A DNA stretch of 64,000 nt, from NCBI GenBank assembly GCA_001414345.1, contig LLCB01000146.1:1-64000 (forward strand), written 5' to 3'. The position numbers were made by a program, and so were the translations under genes. This document shows positions 20,371 through 34,355 of the stretch, piece by piece. Origin of the DNA: Hymenoscyphus infarciens. Its lineage: Eukaryota; Ascomycota; Leotiomycetes; Helotiales; Helotiaceae. Each line of letters opens with the position of its first letter. Positions within the stretch are counted from its first letter, which is position 1. The notes under the pieces were generated by a model, which saw only the letters and a list, made by a program, of their open reading frames with translations, searched no databases and was not told where the DNA came from.

Positions 20371-23300
20371 TCACGCTCGAAGCTTCCTACTTTCAAACAA
20401 CCTCCTCCTTAATCTAGCTTGTCTGGCTGTGATGATATAAAACCCAGCTCCCACGATGCAACACGCCCCCGTCCATATTTGGCTCCCCAGAAAACCTCCA
20501 GAGGACTTATTCGCTGCCAATGCCACGGGGCCACTGATAAGAAACCCGATTCCGGCGAGGGCGTACAACATCCCAAGTCGGGTCCCCAGAACAGCCATAC
20601 TGGGGCATATGTAAGGCAAAACAATCGCAGCAAGAGTAACATTCATGCCGCTAAAGAATCCATAAAAGCAAAGCCACGCAATATAACCACCCGCACTGCG
20701 AATGGCAATCCAGCAAAATGCAAGAACTCCTGCTATGATCTGCGCCGCGAAAAGCAACATCTCAGGGCCCGGAACGAACTTTTCCCTCGACCAGTCTGAC
20801 AGTGTTGACGGAATGACTCTTCCAAAGATCTGGGCGGCATTGAGGATCGTTGCACAATAGAATGTCAGGTCTTCATCAACCGTCACTCTCCCTCCAAAGG
20901 TGGTCACCAGAATGAACGGGACCAAAACACCACAAAATACCACAAACGAGCTGCAAAGAAAGGTCACATAAGGGACATCTCGGAAGGCACTCAAATCAAA
21001 AAGCTCCCTCACCCCAGTTGATCGTGCTCCGATCGGTTTGATCAAGACGTTCGCCACGAGCATGGTTGCCAGTGCGATGAATCCGATAGCTCTATTGCCC
21101 CAACCGAAACCTGCCTCAACAAGAACTTTTCGAAAAACGATCGGATAAATGACTCCTCCCACACTTCCGCCACTCGTCGCTAGGCCCAATGCTAGCCCGC
21201 GGTGCTTCTTGAAGTAAATGGGTACGAGTGCTACAGATGGGATGTACAACAAGCCCAACGATATCCCAACGAGAAGTCCCTGGCTCAGCATTATTTGATA
21301 ATACTCCGTCGACAGACTGAGCATCATCATACCAAGAGCAACACCAAAGGTTGCAAGAATGAGCATAGGACGGAAATACCCACGATCAAAGAGTGGTCCC
21401 GAAACAACACCGACTACGAGAAGAAGTGTGCCTTGAAAGGTGCCAATCCAAGCAATGCTGGACGCTGAATAGGCGGGTAGCAAGACACTTTGATAGTGAG
21501 CTTGGTACACACCGAAGCTATTCACAAGTCCCCAGTTGTTCATGTTGATGAGGAAGCTTCCCAAAACCTGAAGCCAAGCAGTGGTTCCGCCGTCAGCTTG
21601 AAAAATCGGTGGCGGGTTATCACTTTTCAGAAAAGCTCGGCGTAGTCGACGGCTTATTGTGGGCCTCTCGTTGGATTGAGAACGCAGCGTTTGAAAGACC
21701 CTCTCCATTTCCATCCAGGTCTGCTTATCGAACTCGTCGTCAAGATCAAATTCAGAGTATCCTTTCTGTGTCTTCTCTGATTGCAAAGCAATGGCCAGTT
21801 TGGAGATTGTCGGGTTTTCATAGACAGTCATCTGGTCTAATTTGGCATGGGGAGGTCGTAACGCATTAATAGCTCGGAGGAGTGAAATGACTTGGAGTGA
21901 ATCTAGTCCGACGTCGAAGAGATCTGTCGAGTCGGTGAAATCTGAAGTCTCGAGACTCTTGGTGAAATATGACCGAAGAGAATTTTCGGTTGAGGAAATG
22001 GAACTCAGGTCGAATCGGACGTTGTTTCGACTGGCTTTCCTCTCTAAGCTCGCAAAGTTTTCGTACAACTCGTCGATCTTGTCTTTAAAGTCAAGATTGT
22101 TCCGAGCTCGCTGGATGGTGCCTTTCGGTGCCCGAGATAGAGATCTGGTCTGAGGTACGATGATAACAAGGTCCATTGAAATTCTCGCGTATTTGGGACA
22201 TGATCGGTTGGCCTGTTCAACATACGGCTGGAGAGTTTCGAGAAAAGCTTGATATGGAATCGAAAAGTTCTTTGGTTCCACCAACAACGCCGTCTGAAAT
22301 CTCGCTTGGCCAACTACTATACATCCCTCCACAGCCGGGCATGAAGCGATAGTGCCTTCCATAGCAATTGGATTTATCTTCTCCCCATTACTCAACACAA
22401 TCACATCATCCAACCGAGCTTCGTATTTCCAGAGACCCTCTTTCGTGGGATGCTTTGAGAAGCAGTCTTTGGTGTGGTATTCATCAATTTCAGGAAAAGT
22501 GACGAAGATTGCTTGCACAAGATGATTCGGATAAGCCGATTTGCGGACAAAGATCAGTTCGAATAATCCGGGTTGTCCGCTTTCTCGAAATTCAAGACCT
22601 GCCAATGCTTCGTTGAACTTGAAGTAGTTGAAGTCCGAGGCGTCCTTTCTATTATCCATTGGCACACCTCCATACTCTGTTGCGCCCATCGAAGATCCCA
22701 ACTTCACCTTACTCGAAGCCAAATCAGCAGCCTCTTTTGATAATGGACCACCCGAGAATGTTAGCCCCTTTAAGCCTCCCAAGCCATCAAGATATTTCTT
22801 GTTTCTGGTCAGGTCTGCGACAAGCGATGGTGCGAGAATGCTATGTTCAACATTTCCATGAGTATGTACGGCATGAATAAGATCAGCTGTGATCGGTACT
22901 CCTGGGGGTGGAAGTACCACGGTTCCATCAACCCAGGCAATTATTGGAAGCGAGAAGTTAATTCCAGCGATATGGAATGGTGGAAATGGGATAAAGATCC
23001 TCATGTTGCCGTAACGCTGCATCAGATTTGACTCGGGACTCAGGTGATAAGTATCAACCGCAGAGATCAAACCATGCTTGATAGGGACAATTTTTGGTTG
23101 ACCTGTTGAGCCGGAAGTATGCAACAAAATCCATGGCCGGTATCTCCATTGTTCGAAGCTTGCTGTTATAGGGATATGTGCAACAGGTGTGGCGTTCAGC
23201 AGCTCATCCAGCTCGGGTGTCATCACATGATGCATAGATTGATCTTTGATAACTTTCAAGACCGAAGAAGCTGGGCTGGCATTCGTGGTAATTTTCCTCG

Positions 23301-23698
23301 CCTTGGCTTGCTCAAACAAATATGCAAGAGTCTCAGTTGCATTTCGAGGCGATGGAAAAAACATCTGTTCTTTCTATCAGTGTGCTGAAAATGAAGTTTT
23401 AACATTCACTTACAATATATCCACTTTTAGTCGCGGCAAGAGAGAGGATATGATAACGCAGGTCGGGCGGACCCATGTAGACTATCGGCTCGATACCTTC
23501 TGGGTCCCCGAAATTTGTTTGAATCCATTTTGCGGTTCTGTTGATTGCATTTGCAAATTTGCGGTATGAGATGTCTTGAAATCCATCGGATACATCCAAC
23601 GTCCTTGGTATCGATGCATAAGGACGGTCATGGTTATTTAATGCTCGCTCTTCGATGAGGTGGGGCAGTAAACGCTGCCCATATTCTACCTTTTCCAT
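20371..23698 (-). CDS. NRPS-like adenylation-carrier protein fused to an MFS transporter, 1092 aa
   Basis: Exon 1 is 23698-23414 and exon 2 is 23364-20371; the 49-nt intron joins GYI to MFFPSPRN, as in other NRPS-like enzymes. Adenylation domain: A3 LHTSGSTGQPKIVPIKHG (about 176-193), FPPFHIAG, A5 MGATEYGG, A7-like YHTKDCF, A8 ARLDDVIVLSNGEKINP and A10 PKGTIQRARNN. The carrier domain has FDVGLDSL with Ser584 as phosphopantetheine site. A ~65-residue linker leads without stop or intron into a complete MFS domain (about 684-1092), starting DGGTTAWLQV with twelve predicted membrane segments, most like the monocarboxylate-transporter (MCT) branch. Canonical relatives end in a thioester-reductase domain; here the MFS takes that place. 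The A domain should activate a carboxylic acid, and the missing amino-acid-binding Asp pattern argues against an alpha-amino acid. The adenylation part would face the cytosol. Substrate and direction of transport are unknown. Confidence 0.88.
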
Positions 23699-24273
23699 TT
23701 CAAATTGTAAATTGACGTGCGAAGATCATTCGCACCTTGGAGTCATGGATATTTTCCCAACATCGCCATGGTTTTGCATGAAAGCTGAGAGGGGCTTACC
23801 CGAAGGCTCGACTTCTCGCGCTCGAAGTAAGTTTATGGTTTTGTGCCGATCATTGGGAGGCTAACTTTTACTAACCCCCCCCCCTAATTACATTGTACGC
23901 GCACGGTCGTTTTAGTATAGCAAATGTCTGTGCCACAATGTAATTAGGGGGGGGATAGTACCCCTCCCTCACTTTCGGACCGGAGGAAGCCTCCGTTAGG
24001 TTTAAAGTAGAAGCTAGTCAAGTCAAATCGTCATACCTAATCGTTTGGGGACCGTGAAATCAGCTCCTCAGCTATCTAGAAAACCACCATCAGAGTTCAT
24101 GCGCCATCAGCATCCAGACTACCATGTATCATAATTGCGGAGCACTTCTTCAGCAGATGTGGAGCAGAAACTTCCACTTCCACCATGACGTCTGTTTGCT
24201 TGCGTATCTTTGAGGGCGGGTTGTTATAAATAACCATTTCTTGTAGTTGATGTTCAATGTGTTCACAGCAATC
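23699..24273. promoter_or_regulatory. Divergent promoter region between adenylation-MFS and hydrolase genes
   Basis: About 575 bp separate the two start codons, so both genes probably share regulatory DNA. A poly-C-bordered inverted-repeat element (23868-23962) sits inside. No specific operator can be named. Confidence 0.5.
23868..23962. mobile_element. Poly-C-bordered miniature inverted-repeat element, copy 1
   Basis: The left arm TACTAA + C10 + TAATTACATTGT (ending 23896) is mirrored by ACAATGTAATTA + G8 + ATAGTA (23935-23960). The interior is about 38 bp. The arms resemble those of the element at 52986-53086, so this is a dispersed family and not a chance hairpin. The ends are approximate. 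Confidence 0.6.
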
Positions 24274-25609
24274 ATGTCGGAAGAAAATTTTGAGTGCATT
24301 ACACATATCATTCCAGGACAGCACATCAGGCACTATGCCAGAGGAACTTCTGAGCGCCAGGAAGACGAGTTGAGGTTAGTCGTGAAGCAGTACAAGCCTC
24401 GTTATACGAAGTCGAGAAATGTAACAGCCGTTACGATTATTGGAGGCCATGCCAGCGGATTTCCAAAAGAACTTTACGAGCCAGTATGGGACGAGTTGTT
24501 TGAACGTACAAAACCGGATGAGTCTTTCGCTATTAGAAACATATGGATTGCCGATGTTGTGAATCAAGGAGCAAGTGGTGTTCTCAACGAGAATAATCTG
24601 GGTGCGGAGCGTAAGAATTCATACACTTTGCAGTAGTTGAATTGTTCTAATTGAAACAGCATCATATTTCGATCACGCCCGCGATCTCCTTCTCATGATC
24701 AACCAGTTTCGTGCAGAAATGCCACGACCTATCGTAGGCATTGGCCATAGTTTGGGAGGTTGTGTGCTGTTGAACCTCGCTCTACTCCATCCTCGTCTTC
24801 TGACAACAGTGATCGCCATTGAACCCATTGTCAATAAGACCGGGCTTGAGATGTATTTCAAAGGCGCATACCCAATTACCTTCAAAAACGACACTTGGCC
24901 CACACGAAAAGAAGCAGAAGAATACCATCTCAAACATCCATTCTACAAGCACTGGGATCCCACAACTTTGTCCCTTTTCGTCAAATACGGACTTCGCAAT
25001 TCACCAACTACATCACTAGATTCTTCTGAGACTACCACAACCTTGACGACGACAAAACATCAGGAAGTATTTAGTTTTGGTCGAGCCGCGTATCCAAAAC
25101 CCGGTGTCCCTCTCTCCTCTTTCAAACCTACACGCGCAGGATATCCTGATCTCAATATCGAAGAATGGAAACCAGCTAGTGTATTCTACAACCCGGCACC
25201 GACACAAACTTTCTCCCAACTCCAATATCTCAAACCACCATGTCTCTATATTTACGGTTCCAAGACACATATGGCTAGTTCGAAACCACAGGGACAAACT
25301 GATAAGTTGGAGATTACTGGGACTGGCGTTGGTGGAAGTGGGGGGCATGTGGATGGAAAGGTGGATCAGGTTGTCCTCGAGGGAAGCCATTTTGTACCTT
25401 TTGAGAAGCCCCAGGAAGTAGGAAAGGTAGTGCAAGAGTGGCTGCAGAAGGAATTAACAGTATGGTCACGAGAAGAAGAGAAGGAAAGGGAAGTCATGAG
25501 CAAAATTCCTGTTAGTGAGCGTGCTATGATGGATGATGATTGGAGATGGTGGATCAAAGAGTCATTTGGTAAGAAGAAGGATGGGAAGAAAGGTGGCTCG
25601 AAATTGTAG
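24274..25609 (+). CDS. Alpha/beta-hydrolase with C-terminal SKL peroxisome signal, 428 aa
   Basis: Exon 1 is 24274-24610 and exon 2 is 24660-25609; the 49-nt intron is phase 1 and restores GAE-P-SYFDHARDLL. Features are VTIIGGHASGFPKELYEP near the N-terminus, nucleophile elbow VGIGHSLGG with Ser143, a LYIYGSKTHM strand carrying the expected acid region, and LEGSHFVPFEKP with the likely catalytic His. The protein ends GGSKL, a perfect PTS1 signal, so it should enter peroxisomes. The family is commonly annotated as toxin-biosynthesis or peroxisomal hydrolase in fungal metabolite clusters. Function here is inferred as hydrolysis or acyl transfer on a pathway intermediate. An upstream in-frame ATG at 24250 is possible; 24274 fits the usual N-terminal length better. 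The gene is divergent from the adenylation gene and convergent with the P450 gene (173 bp apart). Confidence 0.85.
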
Positions 25610-25781: not shown

Positions 25782-27417
25782 CTACCAACCCTCAAGTTCC
25801 TTCACTTTGAAGTACAATCTCCTTGGCTTCGCTGTTATTCCCCAAATTACGTCCTTTTCATTGCCGAAGCTTCCGTCTTTCAATTTCAAATCAAATTTCC
25901 CAATCAGTACTGAGAGGGAAGCCGCCAACTCAGCTTTCGCAAATTCTTCACCAATACAGGATCTAGGTCCTGCCATGAAAGGCACGTAGGCGAAACGTGA
26001 ACTAACAATGTCCTCAACGGCTTTCACCCTCACTTCTTTCTCGTTCCCCACCTGAGAAGATAACCATCTTTCAGGTTTGAAGTCAGCTGCGTCCAAGCCC
26101 CATTCTTCCCTGTTTCTGTTGACATGCCAAGCTGAGAGTATTACACCAGTACCCTTGGGAACTGGTTGTTCGAGGATACTAGTGTCACTACTAGCTTCCC
26201 TGCGAACTATCGGAGCTGGGGGAAGAATTCTCAATGACTCCTTGATGACTGCTCGAAGATATGGCAGCTCGTCAAGTACATTGGAATCCGTAGCTCCCGA
26301 AGAGGGCGATGGGATATTTGACCTAATCTCATTTCTGAGCTTTTTCTGAACATCTAGTCGTTTGCAAAGGAGGTAGCATGACCAGGTCACCGCCAGACTC
26401 GAAGTTTCGTGTCCAGCTGCAAGGAGATTCATCATATGCCCACTTAGTTGTTCATCGTCAAAAACATCCGCAGAAATCGCTTGGTTGAGAATATCCTTGT
26501 GTGAACGATCTTCTGTCGGAATTTCTCTTTGTGATTTAGAGGATTTCTTCCCATCAATTGCCTCCCTACACGCGGTTTGTATCGCGCGTCTTCCATTGGC
26601 CAAGTTATCGAAGAATACGCAGGGGAATACCCTTCGGAGTGTCTTCATCGGTATAGCCAGAGCTGCAGCATAGATGATATTTGCTTGCCGGTTTGCTTTC
26701 GGACTTCCACGGAAGATTTTGGTGTACTGTGTAACGAAATCCGAGTCCGGTTTCTTCAAAGCTTCAAAATCCTTCCCCCAAGCCGCCACACCAATCACAT
26801 CAAGTGCTGCAAGGGATGTGAAGTGGACAAGTTCCACTGTAGAATACCCATCGGCACTTTTGTGTTCTTTCGCGAATTTCCCCATGGTTTCTGCAAGCTC
26901 GAGGGCTTTGGCCCAGAATACGGGATGTAGTTCTTTGATCTTTCGCGGTGCAAAGGCAGGAAGAAGTTTTTTCTTTTGTGTCTGGAAATTATCAGCAATA
27001 TACGGACTACGATGCGAGAAGTTTGCATACACTATGTGCCTCTCCCTCGAGAACAAAAAGACCGTTTCCGAATAAAGTCCCAAAACGTTGACGGTTCAGT
27101 GGAGACCTCTCAAAATGACCTCCATATACCTTGTTGACGAGGACTTCTTTGACTGCGAGAGGGGCCAATGGAAGAATTCTTGGTGCACCGAGAATTCCAT
27201 AGTATCTCACGATCCCATTATGTCGTGTTCGTTCGAGCCAGCGATCGATTTGTCGCGGGTTTGGTTCCGTGTATAACCATTCGTAGGTTCGAAAGCGCCA
27301 ATCTGCTTTTAATTTGGGGACGAGACGAAGGGGACTGATAAATTCTGGGTAGATGAAGTATGACCATATAAGCTGTATGACAAATGCCAATAGGAGTGCA
27401 AATGTGATTGCATGCAT
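25782..27417 (-). CDS. Cytochrome P450 monooxygenase, 528 aa
   Basis: Exon 1 is 27417-27031 and exon 2 is 26981-25782; the 49-nt intron has GTATGC, GCTGAT and CCAG, phase 0, joining EGEAHS to TQKKKLLPAF in the C-helix. An N-terminal hydrophobic anchor (ITFALLLAFVIQLIWSYF) places it in the ER membrane. Signature motifs are complete: I-helix AAGHETSS, K-helix KESLR, FKPERW, and heme-binding FMAGPRSCIG with Cys471 as thiolate ligand. This is a full-length microsomal class II enzyme needing a reductase. The subfamily cannot be told by eye. Position inside the cluster suggests oxidation of the pathway product. Confidence 0.92.
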
Positions 27418-27880
27418 AATGCCTTGAAAGTTCCCTTCAAGAGCAAGTAAATGGAGTCGTATTGAAGAAGATGGAGGTGCGAGCGACTGTCCCGTTTCCT
27501 GACGGAAGCTTTCCAGTCCATTTTAGTTTGATTTTAGTTCCCTTTCTGGGCAGTGAGCTAACGAGATCTTGTATCCAATGGACGCGATGCTCGCAAAAGG
27601 ACTCCTCGTGATGTTATTGAAATGCAACTTGAAGCTGCTCGGGGTACTACATACTAATTACCAGCACTTAACAAAAACAAAGCAAGTTAGATGGAATGTG
27701 ATTTGTTATTAATGGAGTAGATTAAACAAGTACTTTAAACGACACAAAAAAGCCTCCCTCGTAACCATCATCTCCAGCAAGACTACAAGTGTTCCAAAAA
27801 CAAGCATTATGCGTCCCATCCTAGCCCCCCAGCCAACAAACCAGCCAACATTTGAGGTGTATGTAGTCCTTTCACTACCT
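27418..27880. other. P450 promoter and 3' region of the secreted-protein gene
   Basis: Only short chance open frames are present; nothing further is supported. Confidence 0.5.
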
Positions 27881-28606
27881 CTATTTATCATCAGATGTGC
27901 AGGTTGTGTATTGAACATCGTCGATAAGTAGGGCGAGATCAGTTTGTAGAAGTGCCGATCCACCAGGGAGAGTGTACTGAATAAGGACATATTGAACCTC
28001 CTTGAAATCAGAGTTGAAAGTTCCTGGTGTCATCTGCGCAACTCCAAGAGTCGTGGTGGGGTTGTACGAGAAAGATTGTGCAGCGACTTGCTGAGCCGAG
28101 GCCGTGTTATCACCCGCTTTGTAACCAGTGATAGCGATGTTGCAGGCAGTGGGAAGAGCAGTAGCCCCTTGCAATCCGTTGATTGCACAGCCGTAGTAAA
28201 AACTCGAAGGAGTGAAAGATTTGATAGTTGACCCAGCGTAATTTGCGGTCCACTCCGGCGACCCTCCAGTTGATGTTGTGAGAGCATTCGAGAATGCGTA
28301 TTGGACTCCGGAATGTGGTACGACTCCGGGGAGGAGTGCAGTAGGAACAATTTCGAGGAATTGGAATCCCTGGAAATCGAGACCTTTGTATGGGACTGGA
28401 ATTGGGTTGAGTTCGACAGCTGGTAAACCGGTCAAGTCATCGAAATTGGCATTTTGGGAGGCAGAATTCTTGCACGTAGGAGCAGATGTTTTGGATGGCT
28501 CTGCTGCTTTGGTTGTTTTGGTTGATTTGGATGGCCCCTCCTTTTCGTAGGCTGGATGAGCTGAGACAGCGGCAGCGAGAAGGGCGAATTTCAAGATGTT
28601 ATGCAT
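27881..28606 (-). CDS. Small secreted protein of unknown function, 241 aa
   Basis: Single exon. The N-terminal signal peptide (MHNILKFALLAAAVSA) is followed by a Lys/Ser/Thr-rich stretch (about 20-45) and then a compact domain beginning NFDDLTGLPAVELNPIP, with GLDFQGFQF, PHSGVQYAFSNAL and SFYYGCAINGLQG segments. Three cysteines follow the signal peptide near TCKNS, YGCAI and TACNI, with a fourth at TTCTS close to the end. The pattern resembles a family of fungal extracellular proteins with a beta-rich fold, but I cannot name it. It lies within the cluster and is divergent from the reductase gene; whether it belongs to the pathway is unclear. Confidence 0.8.
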   Translation of the reverse strand: MHNILKFALLAAAVSAHPAYEKEGPSKSTKTTKAAEPSKTSAPTCKNSASQNANFDDLTGLPAVELNPIPVPYKGLDFQGFQFLEIVPTALLPGVVPHSGVQYAFSNALTTSTGGSPEWTANYAGSTIKSFTPSSFYYGCAINGLQGATALPTACNIAITGYKAGDNTASAQQVAAQSFSYNPTTTLGVAQMTPGTFNSDFKEVQYVLIQYTLPGGSALLQTDLALLIDDVQYTTCTSDDK

Positions 28607-29284
28607 GTTGAGTTTTGGAATAGATGGAAATAGATGGATGTAGGTCTTGTGAATAGATGAGAATGCTGTGGTAGTTTTGTGGTTAAAATTAAAGAGTGAA
28701 AAAAGGGCACAAGAACCTCTTTATAAACTTTTGAAGATTGTTTGCTGCCATGAACTCGATGCACAGCTGTTGATCAAAAGAAACTCGGAAGATGGAAGCC
28801 GTGTGGACTTGCCTAGGACTTCATAGACTAATTTTGAGACTTTTTCGCCGCAGAAAGAGCTAACTTGACGAGCAATGCCGGTCTCTGTCATTGGCTTGCA
28901 TATTCCCCTTGGCCGTGAATTACGGTCAAGGTATTCCTTACTGTGCGAGGTAAACGTAAGCAAAATTCTAAACATTTTGCAATAGTGGTGTTGAATTCTA
29001 ACGTGCACTATCCAAATTTGATCCTGATAGTGGCTGAGAATGGCTTGAAGGCCTGGGCTGCTAGTACAGCTCGTTTATGACGTGTAACCCCCTATTTCTC
29101 CACTGAGGAGAAACTAAGCGAGTCAAGGCAATAAGCGTCCGTTGCATAACACGGAACTTTATTATTGTCCCGCGTCTGACAGCAACCATGGTTAAGCTTA
29201 AGCTTTATCGCAAGTGGCCGGACCGGAAACAATAAAGATATACCCTTGTATGTTTCTAATCTATTTCGCCAGAATTGTCCAACA
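28607..29284. promoter_or_regulatory. Divergent promoter region, secreted protein / reductase
   Basis: About 680 bp between two start codons on opposite strands. No gene, no clear repeat. Confidence 0.45.
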
Positions 29285-30603
29285 ATGTCAGCAAACATCA
29301 TTCTCACAGGCTCAACTGGAAACCTGGGATGTTATTTATTGGACGTACTTATACAGTCACCCCAAGTTCACCGAATATTTCTCCTCAACAGATCCTCAAA
29401 TTCCAACCGAACCCAACAATCCAGTTTAGAGAAACGAGGACTGACGATCCCCCAAGCCTCCAAAATCACCTACCACACATGTGATTTCTCCAAACCCGAT
29501 CTAGGGCTAAAGGAAGCCGACTACGAACATCTTGTCGCCACCACAACCCACATACTTCACTGTGCATGGCCGGTAGATTGGAACAAGAACTTTACTACTT
29601 TTGAAGCCCCAATTCGCTCAATCACATACCTCATCGAGCTTACACGCAAAGGCCTTCACAACCCACTATTGTTTTTTGTCTCGTCATCAGCCGTCGTCGG
29701 CAACTGGGGAGCCGTACCTGGTACTAAAAGTCGAGTTCCGGAGTCCGAAATTGATGATGTGAGTGCCCAGTTTGTCTGAGTAAAATGGGGGGTTGGATAA
29801 ATCCTAGAGCTGAGACACTCCTCGAAATTTCTACAATGGCCGTTGAGACACTTGCTCACTCTGCTCCTTCAAAAATCTTACAGACATATACTGACTCCGA
29901 GATTCTGTAGTGGAAAGTTGCAAGGTTTGGTTACGGACAGGCGAAATTAGTAGCGGAGCGCTTATTAGCAGACGCAACCCGACAGACTGGCATCACGGCT
30001 GCAGTCTGTCGTGTTGGCCAAGTGTGTGGTCCTGTAGATCATGGAATCAAAGGTGTATGGCCTCCGCAAGAATGGTTTCCAAGCTTAGTAGCATCATCAA
30101 AATATCTGAAGGTGTTACCTGATAGCTTGGGGCCAATGAACGACATCGACTGGGTCCCTGTGGATAGTCTCGCAAAGATCATTGTTCAGCTCTTGTTTTG
30201 CAAGCATGAACAAGGCTTCATATTACATCATCATGTTGTAAATCCGCAAACAGTGCCATGGGCGACTCTTTTGCCATCGCTGAGAAAGGCTTTAGGCGAG
30301 GATGTGAAAATAGTCCGCTTGCCAGATTGGTTCAAGGCATTGGAAACGAGCTCTGATACAACAAGTGCTGAAGTCCTGTCATCGAATCCATGTCTCAAGT
30401 TAATGTCGTTTTTTGACAATCTAAGAGAGAAGGCGGTCCATCTACCAGAATCTCGAGCACCAAGACTCGATATTAAACATACGGCGAAAAGGAGCGAAAC
30501 CTTAAGGGGTCTGCCACCAGTCAGTCCAGATAATATCCGCATGTGGTTGAGACAATGGGGTTTCAGACACGGAGAGAAAGAAGTTGAAGAAGAGCGTTTG
30601 TGA
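29285..30603 (+). CDS. Stand-alone thioester-reductase (R) domain protein, 388 aa
   Basis: NAD(P)H-dependent reductase of the NAD_binding_4/male-sterility type, the domain that normally ends NRPS-like A-T-R enzymes and releases a carrier-bound acyl group as aldehyde. Exon 1 is 29285-29758 and exon 2 is 29911-30603. The 152-nt intron has GTGAGT, ACTGAC and GTAG; phase 0 joins SEIDD to WKVARFGYGQAK. Motifs are Rossmann LTGSTGNLG (8-16), HCAWPVDWN, FVSSSAVVGNWG, catalytic YGQAK (Tyr166, Lys170), RVGQVCGP, and DWVPVDSLA in the substrate domain. The whole R domain is present with no adenylation or carrier part. The only such partner in view is the A-T-MFS protein 6 kb away, so action in trans is inferred. 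An upstream in-frame ATG at 29246 would add 13 residues of no known type. Confidence 0.88.
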
Positions 30604-30727: not shown

Positions 30728-31831
30728 TCAACTCAAAGTTGCGCTTGGTCCTATGCTCAACCATCCCTCTTTCATTAGGTCTCCAATTTCTCTTCCCCCC
30801 TCAAATCCTGCGGAATCATCGCAAAGATCTCTAACACCGTCCGCGGTCACAGCTATCGCTCTCCCATTTATTGTCGGATCAGCGGCCAAAATTGCCACAG
30901 CGTCTGTAAGATCCCCCATCTTTCCCATCTTTATACCCGCCTTCTTCATTTGAGGAAGTAGCGGTACAGTCATAGGTGTCTCTATGAAAAAGGGCGCCAT
31001 GAGATTGAGGCGTACACCGCCATTTTCGGAAATCTTGGGTAAGGATTGGCGAAGGCATTTGAACACACCACGAATTGCAAACTTCGAGGCGGTATAGTCT
31101 GGTTTTGATGGGAGATAGCGATATCCTGCAGTGGATGAAATAAGGATAATTGATTTCGTGGTCTTCCCAGTTGAGATTGAGGAGGGTCTATCGAGACCCA
31201 TTGCATATTTGACAGCTATGTGGATGCTAAAAAGAGACCCCCTCAAAGCAACGTCTATGCATTGCGTAGAAGGCTCTGGCAGCTGTGGTGGGGTTTGCGA
31301 CCCAGTATCGATAGAAGACCTAGCAGCTCGTGTTTTCGCATACTGCAGCAAGACTTCCGCTCCATTGGGCACCGGGGTCATTGACCAGTCCTGGCTCTTT
31401 ACACCAGCAAATGTCAAGAGTATATCAACCTCATTGGATGGGAAGAACTTGAGGGCGTTTGCGAAGGCGAGAAGCTGATCTTGATACAATGATACGTCTA
31501 GTTGACAAAAGAGGATCCTATGATACTTATATCAGCGTTGGACGAATTTCTAATACAGACTTGTATCGGAGTCAAATCTTTTAGTTACTCACTTACGTCC
31601 TAGTTCCTCTTCCAGTGACTTGCCTCTCTCTTCGTCTCTATCAAAAATCACAACATATGCGGATGCTTCGGCGAACATGCGAACACATGCTTCTCCGAGT
31701 CCTGAGCAACCGCCAGTGACAATGACAGACTTATCTCTGAATATAGAAGAGCTGGGAGCAGCTAGACCATCAAAGATTATTCTCCCATCCGTGTCAAGCT
31801 CTTGTAACTTCATGTATTTTGCTGAAGCCAT
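30728..31831 (-). CDS. Short-chain dehydrogenase/reductase, 342 aa
   Basis: Classical SDR acting on an alcohol or ketone with NAD(P). Exon 1 is 31831-31593 and exon 2 is 31517-30728; the 75-nt intron uses the second donor GTGAGT, phase 2, giving GRKILFCQLDVS across the junction. Motifs are cofactor-binding VIVTGGCSGLGEA (about 36-48), QLDVS, LLTFAG in the NNAG position, catalytic Ser in ILISSTAG, and YTASK with the Tyr-x3-Lys pair. The start MASAKYMKLQ is chosen; an upstream in-frame ATG would add 19 residues. The gene is convergent with the reductase gene (124 bp apart). The sequence is nearest by eye to 15-hydroxyprostaglandin-dehydrogenase-like SDRs; the substrate is unknown. Confidence 0.87.
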
Positions 31832-32972
31832 GATGCTTATTGATATCAAATGATTTGGAGAAGACCACGGGGTTAGCCATGATAACAAAAGTTAGACCGC
31901 TTACTGAGCAGCTATCTACTCCGTAGTGTATGATAGTTCTTAGCTGAAGTTGAGTGTGGCCATACCGGAGCGGATCAATATATATCCGCTCCGCCATTCT
32001 GCAAGAAACGATGTCCTCAAACCAACTCTCCTCGAGCCTTCAACGACAGCATTATATGTGAAATGGAGTCGCCATGAGTTGCTGTATGCTAAAAGTTAAT
32101 CTTGCAGTGCGCGCAACAGGAGCCCACCCCCCGCGATACGTTTTCGACGATGAAAGTGTGTATATCCTCGAAACCCCTTTTGCTGGCCACTCCAGCTCGC
32201 TCCCCCTCGTAACGAACGACTCGATTTCCCCCTTCACCCAAACCTCACGAGTCCTTGACCTCTCGACCTCTTCGCCCCGGGACATGGAAATCAGAATGCA
32301 GGTGAACATTCATCGAGATTCGATATATATGCGCAGTTTAGTTGGGGGATATATACAACGGCATTCGCCACGGTATCATTTCTTTTTGTCCTCAGGCAAG
32401 AATTGCGCTGCAGAGATTGTGGCATCGTTGTCAAGTGATTGATGGGAGAGAATGCATGTTTCACAATCGATTGCGATTTACGATTTCAATTCCTGTTATC
32501 CCAGAGAACATAGGAGGAGCTTCTCGTTTACTTTGTCGCGATAAATTCTTCGTTTCCAACCACCTTCTTGAGGCCCGGAGATGCATTTCTATGTAAGAAA
32601 AAAAAAATGCGTTTACAGCGTATTATTTCTTGCAATATTCAGGTCTTTGGATGAACTTCGTTTTCTAAAGCTCAAGACTGTTTAATAATGTCGGGGCAAA
32701 GAAGAGTCTGGCGTGGAGATATATCAAGGTGAAGAAACCCCCATCTTTGAATCACCCAGGGTTCACAGATGGTGTCACCACTGGCCTCTTACTCCTCTTC
32801 GATCAGACCAGATGCATGCAAGACGCAATTATCTAGTAACTGTCGCAATTTCAATCTTACCAATCAACACAATCAAAAAATTGCATAAAGGCCAACTTTT
32901 GACATCTCTTCTTATTGTCACATTACCAAGTCTATCTTATCTGTACAATATTGAACTCGGAAATCCTTCAAA
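31832..32972. promoter_or_regulatory. Divergent promoter region, SDR / flavin monooxygenase
   Basis: About 1.1 kb between divergent start codons. Open frames on both strands around 32052-32442 (85 and 122 codons) overlap each other and resemble nothing. A CCGGAGCGGATC / GATATATCCGCTCCG inverted motif lies at about 31963-31995. Confidence 0.4.
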
Positions 32973-34355
32973 ATGCCAGTCGAGTTCATTAGCGCAACAT
33001 TTCCCAATCGGTCAACTGAGTTGTCGCCAATTCCAAATGCCCCTATTGACCCAGACTACCTCATTCGTTATGCTCGCTCCCTCGACGACTATGAGTTCAA
33101 CTACACACTTGTGCCCTACGACTCCTCTTACTTTGATCCTTGGACTGTCGCCTCGACTATCGCAGCGGTGACAAAGAACCTCAAAGTCATTATAGCTGTC
33201 AGACCCAACACCCTCTATCCAACCCTGGCTGCCAAAGCCCTCTCTACTCTTGATCAAATCAGCAAAGGGCGTGTTGTCGTGCATTTCATCGCGGGCGGGA
33301 GTGACGTTGAACAAGCTAGAGAGGGAGATTTCCTGACCAAGGAACAACGTTATGAGAGGCTCGAGGAGTATATTCGAATTGTCAAAAGAGCTTGGGAATC
33401 AAAGGAACCATTTGATTGGGAGGGAAAACATTACCAGTTCAAGGGATTCAGAAACCTGGTTCCTCCACACAACGGCAAATCTATACCAGTTTCAGTGGGA
33501 GGATCATCAGACGAGGCTTACCGCGTTGGTGGCAGTTTGGGAGATATCTTTGGGCTTTGGGGAGAACCATTAAAGGAGACTCAAGATCAGATTGATCGTA
33601 TTTACGCCGAAGCAGAGAAAGCTGGCCGAACTGACCGCCCAAGAATTTGGGTCACGTTCAGACCAATTGTGGCCGAGACGGATGACCTAGCTTGGGCGAA
33701 AGCTCATCGTACTCTCGACGCTCTCACGGCCAATCGAGAAGCTGGAAAGAGCAGAATTCCTGCAAATGCTCCACCCCCACAAAATGTTGGCTCCCAACGA
33801 CTCCTTGAAATCGCTAAGCGCGGAGAAGTTCAAGATCGAGCCCTCTGGTACCCCACAGTCACTGCAACGGGTGCACGTGGAGCATCTACTGCTCTGGTCG
33901 GCTCTTATCAAACCATTGTCGATTCGATTCTGGATTATGTTGACCTCGGTTGTGAATTGATCTCTATTCGGGGATATGACAACCTGAACGATGCCATCGA
34001 CTATGGTCGATATGTGCTGCCAAAGGTACGAGAGGGTATCAAAGAACGGGCAGAGAAGGGGACCAAGAGTGTTGTTGGAGAAGCAGCAACCACTATCGCG
34101 GACAAATTGCCAGAATCCGTCACAAGCAAAGTAACCGAAGCCGTGAAAGAACCAATCGACTCTACCACCAACCCTACCAGCGAAGCTCCCGTTGCAAATG
34201 ATACACCAGAGATTGTGAAGGAGTCGATTGAGGAGTCGGGCAAGAGTCCTGAGGCTGCCAGTAATGAAGAGGCTGTGTTAGAAAAGAAGTCTGTTGAGAA
34301 GGAGTTGTTAGCAAAGACAGTGGATAAGTCTGCAAGTGAAGAACAAGCGAAATAA
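32973..34355 (+). CDS. Luciferase-like / alkanesulfonate-type flavin monooxygenase, 460 aa
   Basis: Single exon. Residues 1-350 are the TIM-barrel of the bacterial luciferase-like monooxygenase family, nearest to SsuD-type FMNH2-dependent enzymes: EFISATFPNRS, FNYTLVPYDSSYFDPWTVAS, VIIAVRPNTLYPTLAAK, GRVVVHFIAGGSD, RYERLEEYIRIVKRAW, IPVSVGGSSDEAYR, and GCELISIRGYDNLNDAIDYG. Such enzymes need a separate flavin reductase. Residues about 351-460 are an Ala/Lys/Glu-rich tail not found in the core family. The TAA stop (34353-34355) is followed in frame by 19 more sense codons to TAG (34413-34415), and these repeat the tail motif PEIVKES, so the stop may be recent. The gene is divergent from the SDR, which suggests co-regulation. 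Its role in the pathway is inferred. Confidence 0.87.
   Translation: MPVEFISATFPNRSTELSPIPNAPIDPDYLIRYARSLDDYEFNYTLVPYDSSYFDPWTVASTIAAVTKNLKVIIAVRPNTLYPTLAAKALSTLDQISKGRVVVHFIAGGSDVEQAREGDFLTKEQRYERLEEYIRIVKRAWESKEPFDWEGKHYQFKGFRNLVPPHNGKSIPVSVGGSSDEAYRVGGSLGDIFGLWGEPLKETQDQIDRIYAEAEKAGRTDRPRIWVTFRPIVAETDDLAWAKAHRTLDALTANREAGKSRIPANAPPPQNVGSQRLLEIAKRGEVQDRALWYPTVTATGARGASTALVGSYQTIVDSILDYVDLGCELISIRGYDNLNDAIDYGRYVLPKVREGIKERAEKGTKSVVGEAATTIADKLPESVTSKVTEAVKEPIDSTTNPTSEAPVANDTPEIVKESIEESGKSPEAASNEEAVLEKKSVEKELLAKTVDKSASEEQAK

Follow-up and report, generated by a model that had tools for sequence, protein, structure and literature searches.

In a 64,000-nucleotide stretch of Hymenoscyphus infarciens DNA (contig LLCB01000146.1, positions 1 to 64,000; hereafter the window), a minus-strand gene encodes an adenylation (A) domain, a carrier (T) domain and a major facilitator superfamily (MFS) transporter domain in a single predicted protein, A-T-MFS. 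A standalone thioester reductase (R) gene with a NAD_binding_4 domain lies 5.6 kb away, at 29285-30603 on the plus strand, and encodes 388 residues. With moderate confidence, we read the two genes as a split, membrane-anchored carboxylate reductase, the acid-activating half of which is fused to a carboxylate-type transporter. Comparison of sequences establishes the parts of this system, their intact motifs, the recurrence of the fusion and, in part of the family, the co-location of R and its matched trees, and structure prediction gives the MFS part a fold like that of the monocarboxylate transporters (MCT).

The A-T-MFS gene comprises two exons, which by predicted splicing yield a protein of 1,092 residues starting at ATG 23698. 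Exon 1 (23414..23698) contributes 95 codons with the start of the A domain and is followed by a GT donor at 23413. A predicted phase 0 intron of 49 nt (23365..23413, GTAAGT...CAG) separates it from exon 2 (20371..23364), which encodes the remaining A domain, the T domain, a linker, the MFS domain and the stop, and the exons join in frame at MFFPSPRN. The minus-strand frame 20371-23373 runs for 1000 codons without a stop and includes both the A and MFS domains with no intron between them. A Pfam scan of exon 2 recovered four domains above the curated cut-offs, namely AMP-binding_C_3 (E 2.5e-34), AMP-binding (3.2e-17), PP-binding (8.3e-8) and MFS_1 (5.2e-16). NAD_binding_4 was absent from the A-T-MFS protein in Pfam, so the R domain is not in the same chain. 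Upstream of the start, by about 180-260 bases, lies a MITE-like (miniature inverted-repeat transposable element) sequence at 23877-23954, with perfect 20-nt inverted arms and 38 nt between them. Its strand folds well below shuffled sequences (z -4.24), at least 39 other places in the genome, among the matches listed, resemble it over stretches of about 80-100 bases (87-92% identity), and it may affect the nearby A-T-MFS promoter.

The exon 2 part of the A domain (residues 1-437; 22054..23364) matches PF00501 and PF23562 and carries TSGSTGQPK, WKYEARLDD and PKGTIQR; in a motif comparison of 33 family members, the core motifs were intact in the window protein. Its closest solved relative is 4-chlorobenzoate CoA ligase (E 5e-6), a match too weak for the acid to be named. 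The T domain (PF00550; residues 472-525; 21790..21951) retains GLDSL, with the phosphopantetheine Ser at 21900-21898 (residue 489 in exon 2 numbering). The linker (residues 526-590; 21595..21789) has an acidic stretch and two conserved positions, Trp550 (30 of 33 aligned members) and Met553 (33 of 33). AlphaFold2 predicts helices in the linker at 544-564 and 570-579 with low to middling confidence, and the spacing from the T-domain motif to the first transmembrane helix (TM1) ranges from 58 to 144 residues across the 33 members. An earlier, sequence-only reading of this stretch had proposed A, T and MFS domains in one frame, an A domain of the fungal nonribosomal peptide synthetase (NRPS)-like type and a linker of about 65 residues. 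The open frame and the Pfam domains bear out the first two points, and the linker length fits, with the PP-binding match ending at 525 and the DGG sequence starting at 591.

The MFS domain (20374..21594, minus strand; PF07690) is SLC16/MCT-like in its sequence and predicted fold. AlphaFold2 modeling with 33 family rows gave a mean predicted local distance difference test score (pLDDT) of 82.2 and a predicted template modeling score (pTM) of 0.51, the low pTM leaving the placing of A-T relative to the membrane part unfixed. From residue 591 on, 34 of the 41 ten-residue blocks had a pLDDT of at least 84, and the other seven lay at 64-83. Twelve long helices with short loops were counted by eye in the model between residues 594 and 996; family-averaged hydropathy displayed 13 peaks from residue 575 on, which correspond to 12 helices when two peaks 15 residues apart are taken as one. 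Among solved-structure sequences matched at E<=1, 12 of 14 were MCT1/2/8/10, and a family-profile search returned the same transporters in 12 of 17 matches, the other five matching the A domain. The closest solved sequences were MCT2, MCT1, MCT8 and MCT10, of which MCT8 and MCT10 carry thyroid hormone; the C-terminal half of the MFS part, searched alone, gave a single chance-level match. The closest folds, among 1000 chains compared, were OxlT and MCT1, with drug antiporters also on the list and the VIA-align rows covering the MFS part. Foldseek returned A domains with peptidyl carrier protein (A-PCP), one carboxylate reductase A-PCP among them, at root-mean-square deviations of 7-20. The Arg of the eighth transmembrane helix (TM8), a helix that no MCT1 alignment covered, is retained and presumably suits an acid as cargo.

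The fusion recurs across fungi. Residues 600-1092 were used as a query against proteins between 0.55 and 1.75 times as long as the full protein, and scoring of the 7,996 candidates with the highest word overlap identified 64 matches. By precomputed Pfam annotation, 58 of these combine MFS with A and/or T, and all four domains are present in 44. Of the six remaining matches, four have MFS and neither A nor T (P0049, P0061, P0064, P0065), and two have A and T and no MFS call (P0062, P0063). Named members span four ascomycete classes (classes looked up): Lachnellula suecica in Leotiomycetes, Lecanicillium in Sordariomycetes, Coniocarpon cinnabarinum in Arthoniomycetes and Dothidotthia in Dothideomycetes, with further members in Zasmidium, Elsinoe, Trypethelium, Bathelium and a source whose name starts with 'Septori' (P0003). 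Joined-domain homologues of the kind that the earlier reading had suggested looking for thus exist, and with 58 of them the missed stop it had named as a possible refutation becomes very unlikely. An assembly or gene-model artefact is ruled out for practical purposes, given that A and MFS share one intron-free open frame and that the joined homologues come from several data sources. As the same reading had stated for A-T-MFS proteins, no description of this fusion, or of a split reductase, was found in the literature searched, the scope of which excluded most subscription journals and preprints. In P0064 (Fusarium sp. LHS14.1), the MFS domain is joined to a Mur-ligase domain, which may reflect either a second fusion of transporter and enzyme or a gene-model merger.

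Beyond the fungi, scans with the family alignment gave 21 pattern matches in GTDB contigs and 14 in viral contigs, and tblastn confirmed none of them; this is weak evidence for the absence of bacterial or viral relatives because each scan used only two short patterns. That alignment joined exon 2 of the window to 32 of the 64 matches, hand-picked for near-full length. Pfam recognizes A and MFS in all 33 members and the carrier in 30. Among the 30 members other than the Elsinoe proteins, the MFS part had the highest mean pairwise identity (56.7%), followed by A (48.3%), T (39.2%) and the linker (26.0%). In the three Elsinoe proteins (P0048, P0050, P0051), the A3 string, the A10 Lys and Trp550 are lost and the carrier stretch is absent from two of them, while the MFS part is conserved. 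By their motifs, these proteins are a natural uncoupling of the fusion, and their pattern suggests that the MFS part is a working transporter by itself. We would guess that W550 serves the enzyme side, perhaps in docking R. Within the H. infarciens genome, 11 other AMP-binding_C_3 loci were found; seven have an R match behind A, and none has an MFS match there in stretches of 6-8 kb.

A reductase is the usual terminal domain of A-T enzymes of this type. The standalone R gene of the window has NAD_binding_4 and LTGSTGNLG in exon 1 (29285..29758, plus strand) and the YGQAK and Ser motifs in exon 2 (29911..30603), the splice being predicted by eye, and it has relatives linked to A-T-MFS genes. 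Of 72 matches in an R search, those linked rank between 2 and 35, and none of the 37 ranked below them is matched. Thirteen of the 58 A-T-MFS matches (13 of 63 overall, with P0065 omitted as its contig size was not given) have an R relative whose longest contig is of exactly equal base count, and in all 13 pairs the sources, compared by eye, agree. Chance coincidence of contig sizes, estimated in 2000 trials with jittered lengths, averaged 0.06 with a maximum of 2. The shortest shared contig has 6,668 bases, so the A-T-MFS and R genes are near neighbors there. The Ser and YGQxK motifs were kept in 15 of 15 R sequences and the nucleotide-fold LTGS in 14, with P0085 (LIGSTSNVG) as the exception. 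These data support a pairing of A-T-MFS with R in part of the family. The earlier reading is supported on the A-T-MFS order, the NRPS-like A domain and the MCT type, the last now agreeing with the nearest solved sequences and folds, and had overlooked the separate R gene.

The two halves also share a history. After low-coverage rows were dropped, trees were built from 64 A rows (at least 260 residues), 78 R rows (at least 230) and 61 MFS rows (at least 270). For 14 pairs, the 13 linked ones and the window, the A and R trees correlated at a Mantel r of 0.868, a value reached in none of 20000 permutations (best 0.538), and agreed in 8 of 11 splits. In the A tree, the family makes up a single clade of 55 rows (support 0.87), which groups at 0.965 with L027, L031 and L033 of the H. 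infarciens genome; paralogues from that genome were the only A-T-R yardsticks in this tree. Standalone R sequences form a clade of 41 rows (0.94) that includes all 13 linked R and joins, at only 0.655, a group holding the R of L027, L028 and L031. These three loci have R behind A; L033 showed none. Monophyly of the MFS part received weak support (0.568). Both halves are thus neighbors of A-T-R enzymes of one type, a pattern that suits a single split of an A-T-R gene accompanied by acquisition of an MFS domain, although deep support in the trees is modest.

The split-reductase reading can be set out as follows. Breakage of an ancestral A-T-R enzyme would have left R as a separate gene, with an SLC16-type transporter replacing it at the C-terminal end of A-T. 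In the resulting protein, the MFS part would anchor the enzyme at the membrane and carry a carboxylic acid across it, most likely toward the cytosol. The A domain would adenylate this acid with ATP and load it onto the T domain, close to the mouth of the transporter, where it would be trapped as a thioester. With the R half encoded in a neighboring gene, reduction is the likely fate of the captured acid: using NAD(P)H, the R protein would release an aldehyde, and a nearby short-chain dehydrogenase/reductase (SDR) may adjust the oxidation state. We infer that R acts in trans on the T domain of A-T-MFS, completing a carboxylate reductase. The cargo of the MFS part would then be the acid rather than the product, moving in the direction given above and kinetically coupled to the enzyme, and membrane passage would be coupled to adenylation in a vectorial capture. 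The recurrence of the fusion, together with R on the same contig in part of the family, indicates that acid transport and reduction may be physically coupled. A more specific version is tentative, and we hold it to be clearly less probable than the split itself: the MFS part would hand the acid directly to the tethered A-T in a thioester trap, with R docking on the linker helix at W550/M553.

Several observations weigh against these proposals. No R contig of equal size was found for 50 of 63 matches, including 45 of the 58 A-T-MFS proteins; although many unlinked contigs are short, R is also missing from long ones (Zasmidium, Bathelium). A standalone R of Cercospora beticola, on a 4.17 Mb contig, had no A-T-MFS match among those listed on that contig. 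Sharing of a contig was itself judged from equal base count and the same source. Matched trees indicate joint inheritance rather than contact, because common descent of the species accounts for part of the match. The MFS part missed the NCBIfam MCT cut-off (TIGR00892, 75.5 bits versus 586.1 needed), and the TM1 Lys and TM8 Asp, which we take to be the proton-coupling residues of MCT1, were not seen in the motif blocks, TM8 lying outside every MCT1 alignment. As a regular third member, the SDR was rejected: none of five SDR matches, in a search cut at E 1e-20, lay on A-T-MFS contigs, and its support comes from the window itself and P0003.

Of the other explanations, export coupling comes closest to the split-reductase reading, although we regard it as unlikely. 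Here, the MFS part would export the product of the pathway, whether an alcohol, an aldehyde derivative or an acid, and the fusion would place synthesis beside the exit. MFS transporters of fungal metabolite clusters are commonly exporters; the nearby P450, hydrolase, SDR and flavin monooxygenase genes suggest a longer pathway, the product of which may need export; and the three Elsinoe members retain the MFS part after loss of A motifs. However, carboxylate carriers lead the nearest sequences and folds, though MCT8, MCT10 and drug antiporters appear in the same list, and the TM8 Arg would suit an acid, whereas product aldehydes are uncharged. Less probable again is a fusion reflecting co-expression, in which A-T and R make an aldehyde and the MFS part serves the same pathway with no direct hand-over. 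Fusions can arise from co-regulation alone, and the variable spacing between the T motif and TM1 speaks for this option; a single architecture across four classes with conserved linker positions argues otherwise. It is very improbable that the MFS part serves solely as an anchor, in the manner of the poly-lysine synthetase membrane domain: A-T enzymes with membrane C-termini are described in PMC10522769 and PMC7179176, but the MFS part is the most conserved portion of the fusion, its transporter motifs are kept, and the Elsinoe members hold it despite a degenerate A domain.

A-T-MFS resembles several known systems in part. Like the fungal adenylate-forming reductases (A-T-R; an 84-member set, PMC9605436), the system combines NRPS-like A and T domains with a thioester reductase, here encoded in its own gene, and the trees put both A-T-MFS and R beside A-T-R loci of the same genome; unlike them, its chain has a 12-helix MFS domain in place of R. 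With SLC16 MCT and OxlT-type carboxylate carriers it shares the nearest solved sequences, the nearest folds and apparently the TM8 Arg; in contrast, its transporter sits behind an A-T enzyme and falls short of the NCBIfam threshold. The epsilon-poly-lysine and delta-poly-ornithine synthetases (PMC7179176, PMC10522769) likewise join A-T to a C-terminal membrane domain in a single chain, but theirs has six helices with three intervening soluble polymerisation segments, which the 12-helix transporter fold of A-T-MFS lacks. Bacterial LplT-Aas (PMC11416262) couples an MFS carrier to an acyl-activating enzyme, reportedly as one ORF in certain bacteria, and acylation takes place on the cytoplasmic side after transport; compared by description rather than sequence, it differs in its lysophospholipid substrate and acyltransferase chemistry. 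ChNPS12 (PMC2823734) also pairs a fungal A domain with a membrane domain, in this case a ferric reductase instead of a transporter. In Verticillium dahliae, ANN3 (PMC13065033), again compared by description and not by sequence, is a single protein with AMP-binding and carrier domains plus transmembrane segments, but the predicted segments number five, and the main text of that source does not contain the term 'MFS'.

The PlsC-type acyltransferase domain, presumably a trait of LplT-Aas, was not found by Pfam in the A-T-MFS protein at E<=0.01. If true, direct hand-over would amount to vectorial acid reduction at the membrane, a kind of group translocation in which the fold of a secondary transporter does the work. 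Acids from outside or from storage compartments would feed such reduction, which could help in scavenging or in disarming weak acids. To our knowledge, carboxylate reductases have been described as soluble one-chain enzymes, and they are sought as biocatalysts for aldehydes; the split R would offer a natural trans-acting partner for engineering. A conserved lineage with a carboxylate-type transporter in place of the in-chain reductase, and in part of the family with R on the same contig, would show transport and activation naturally combined in a single polypeptide, and it would allow a direct test of whether an activating enzyme can pull its substrate through its own carrier.

Between the two halves lie two candidate member genes. 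An alpha/beta hydrolase gene (24247..25609, plus strand) matches PF12697 on 24641-25606, its first exon (24247-24636) being assigned by eye. A cytochrome P450 gene (25782..27522, minus strand) has at least two exons, with PF00067 on 25785-27095 (E 2.8e-61) and a first exon at 27007-27522, also assigned by eye. A DUF7371 protein (27881-28720) is encoded between the P450 and R genes. In a genome search for ketosynthases, none of the 41 matches was listed on the A-T-MFS contig. Beyond R, the SDR gene, a further candidate member with an adh_short domain, has two exons on the minus strand (31593..31831, predicted, and 30728..31517) and adjoins a luciferase-like (PF00296) monooxygenase gene at 32955-34355. 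P0003 carries an SDR behind its MFS domain, at about residues 1098-1357, with 36% identity to the window SDR over 221 residues; this A-T-MFS-SDR protein may be a real triple fusion or a product of merged neighboring genes. Searched against the H. infarciens genome, the SDR part of P0003 matched C54 (139.9 bits) and the two exons of the window SDR (122.6 and 33.6 bits) about equally well.
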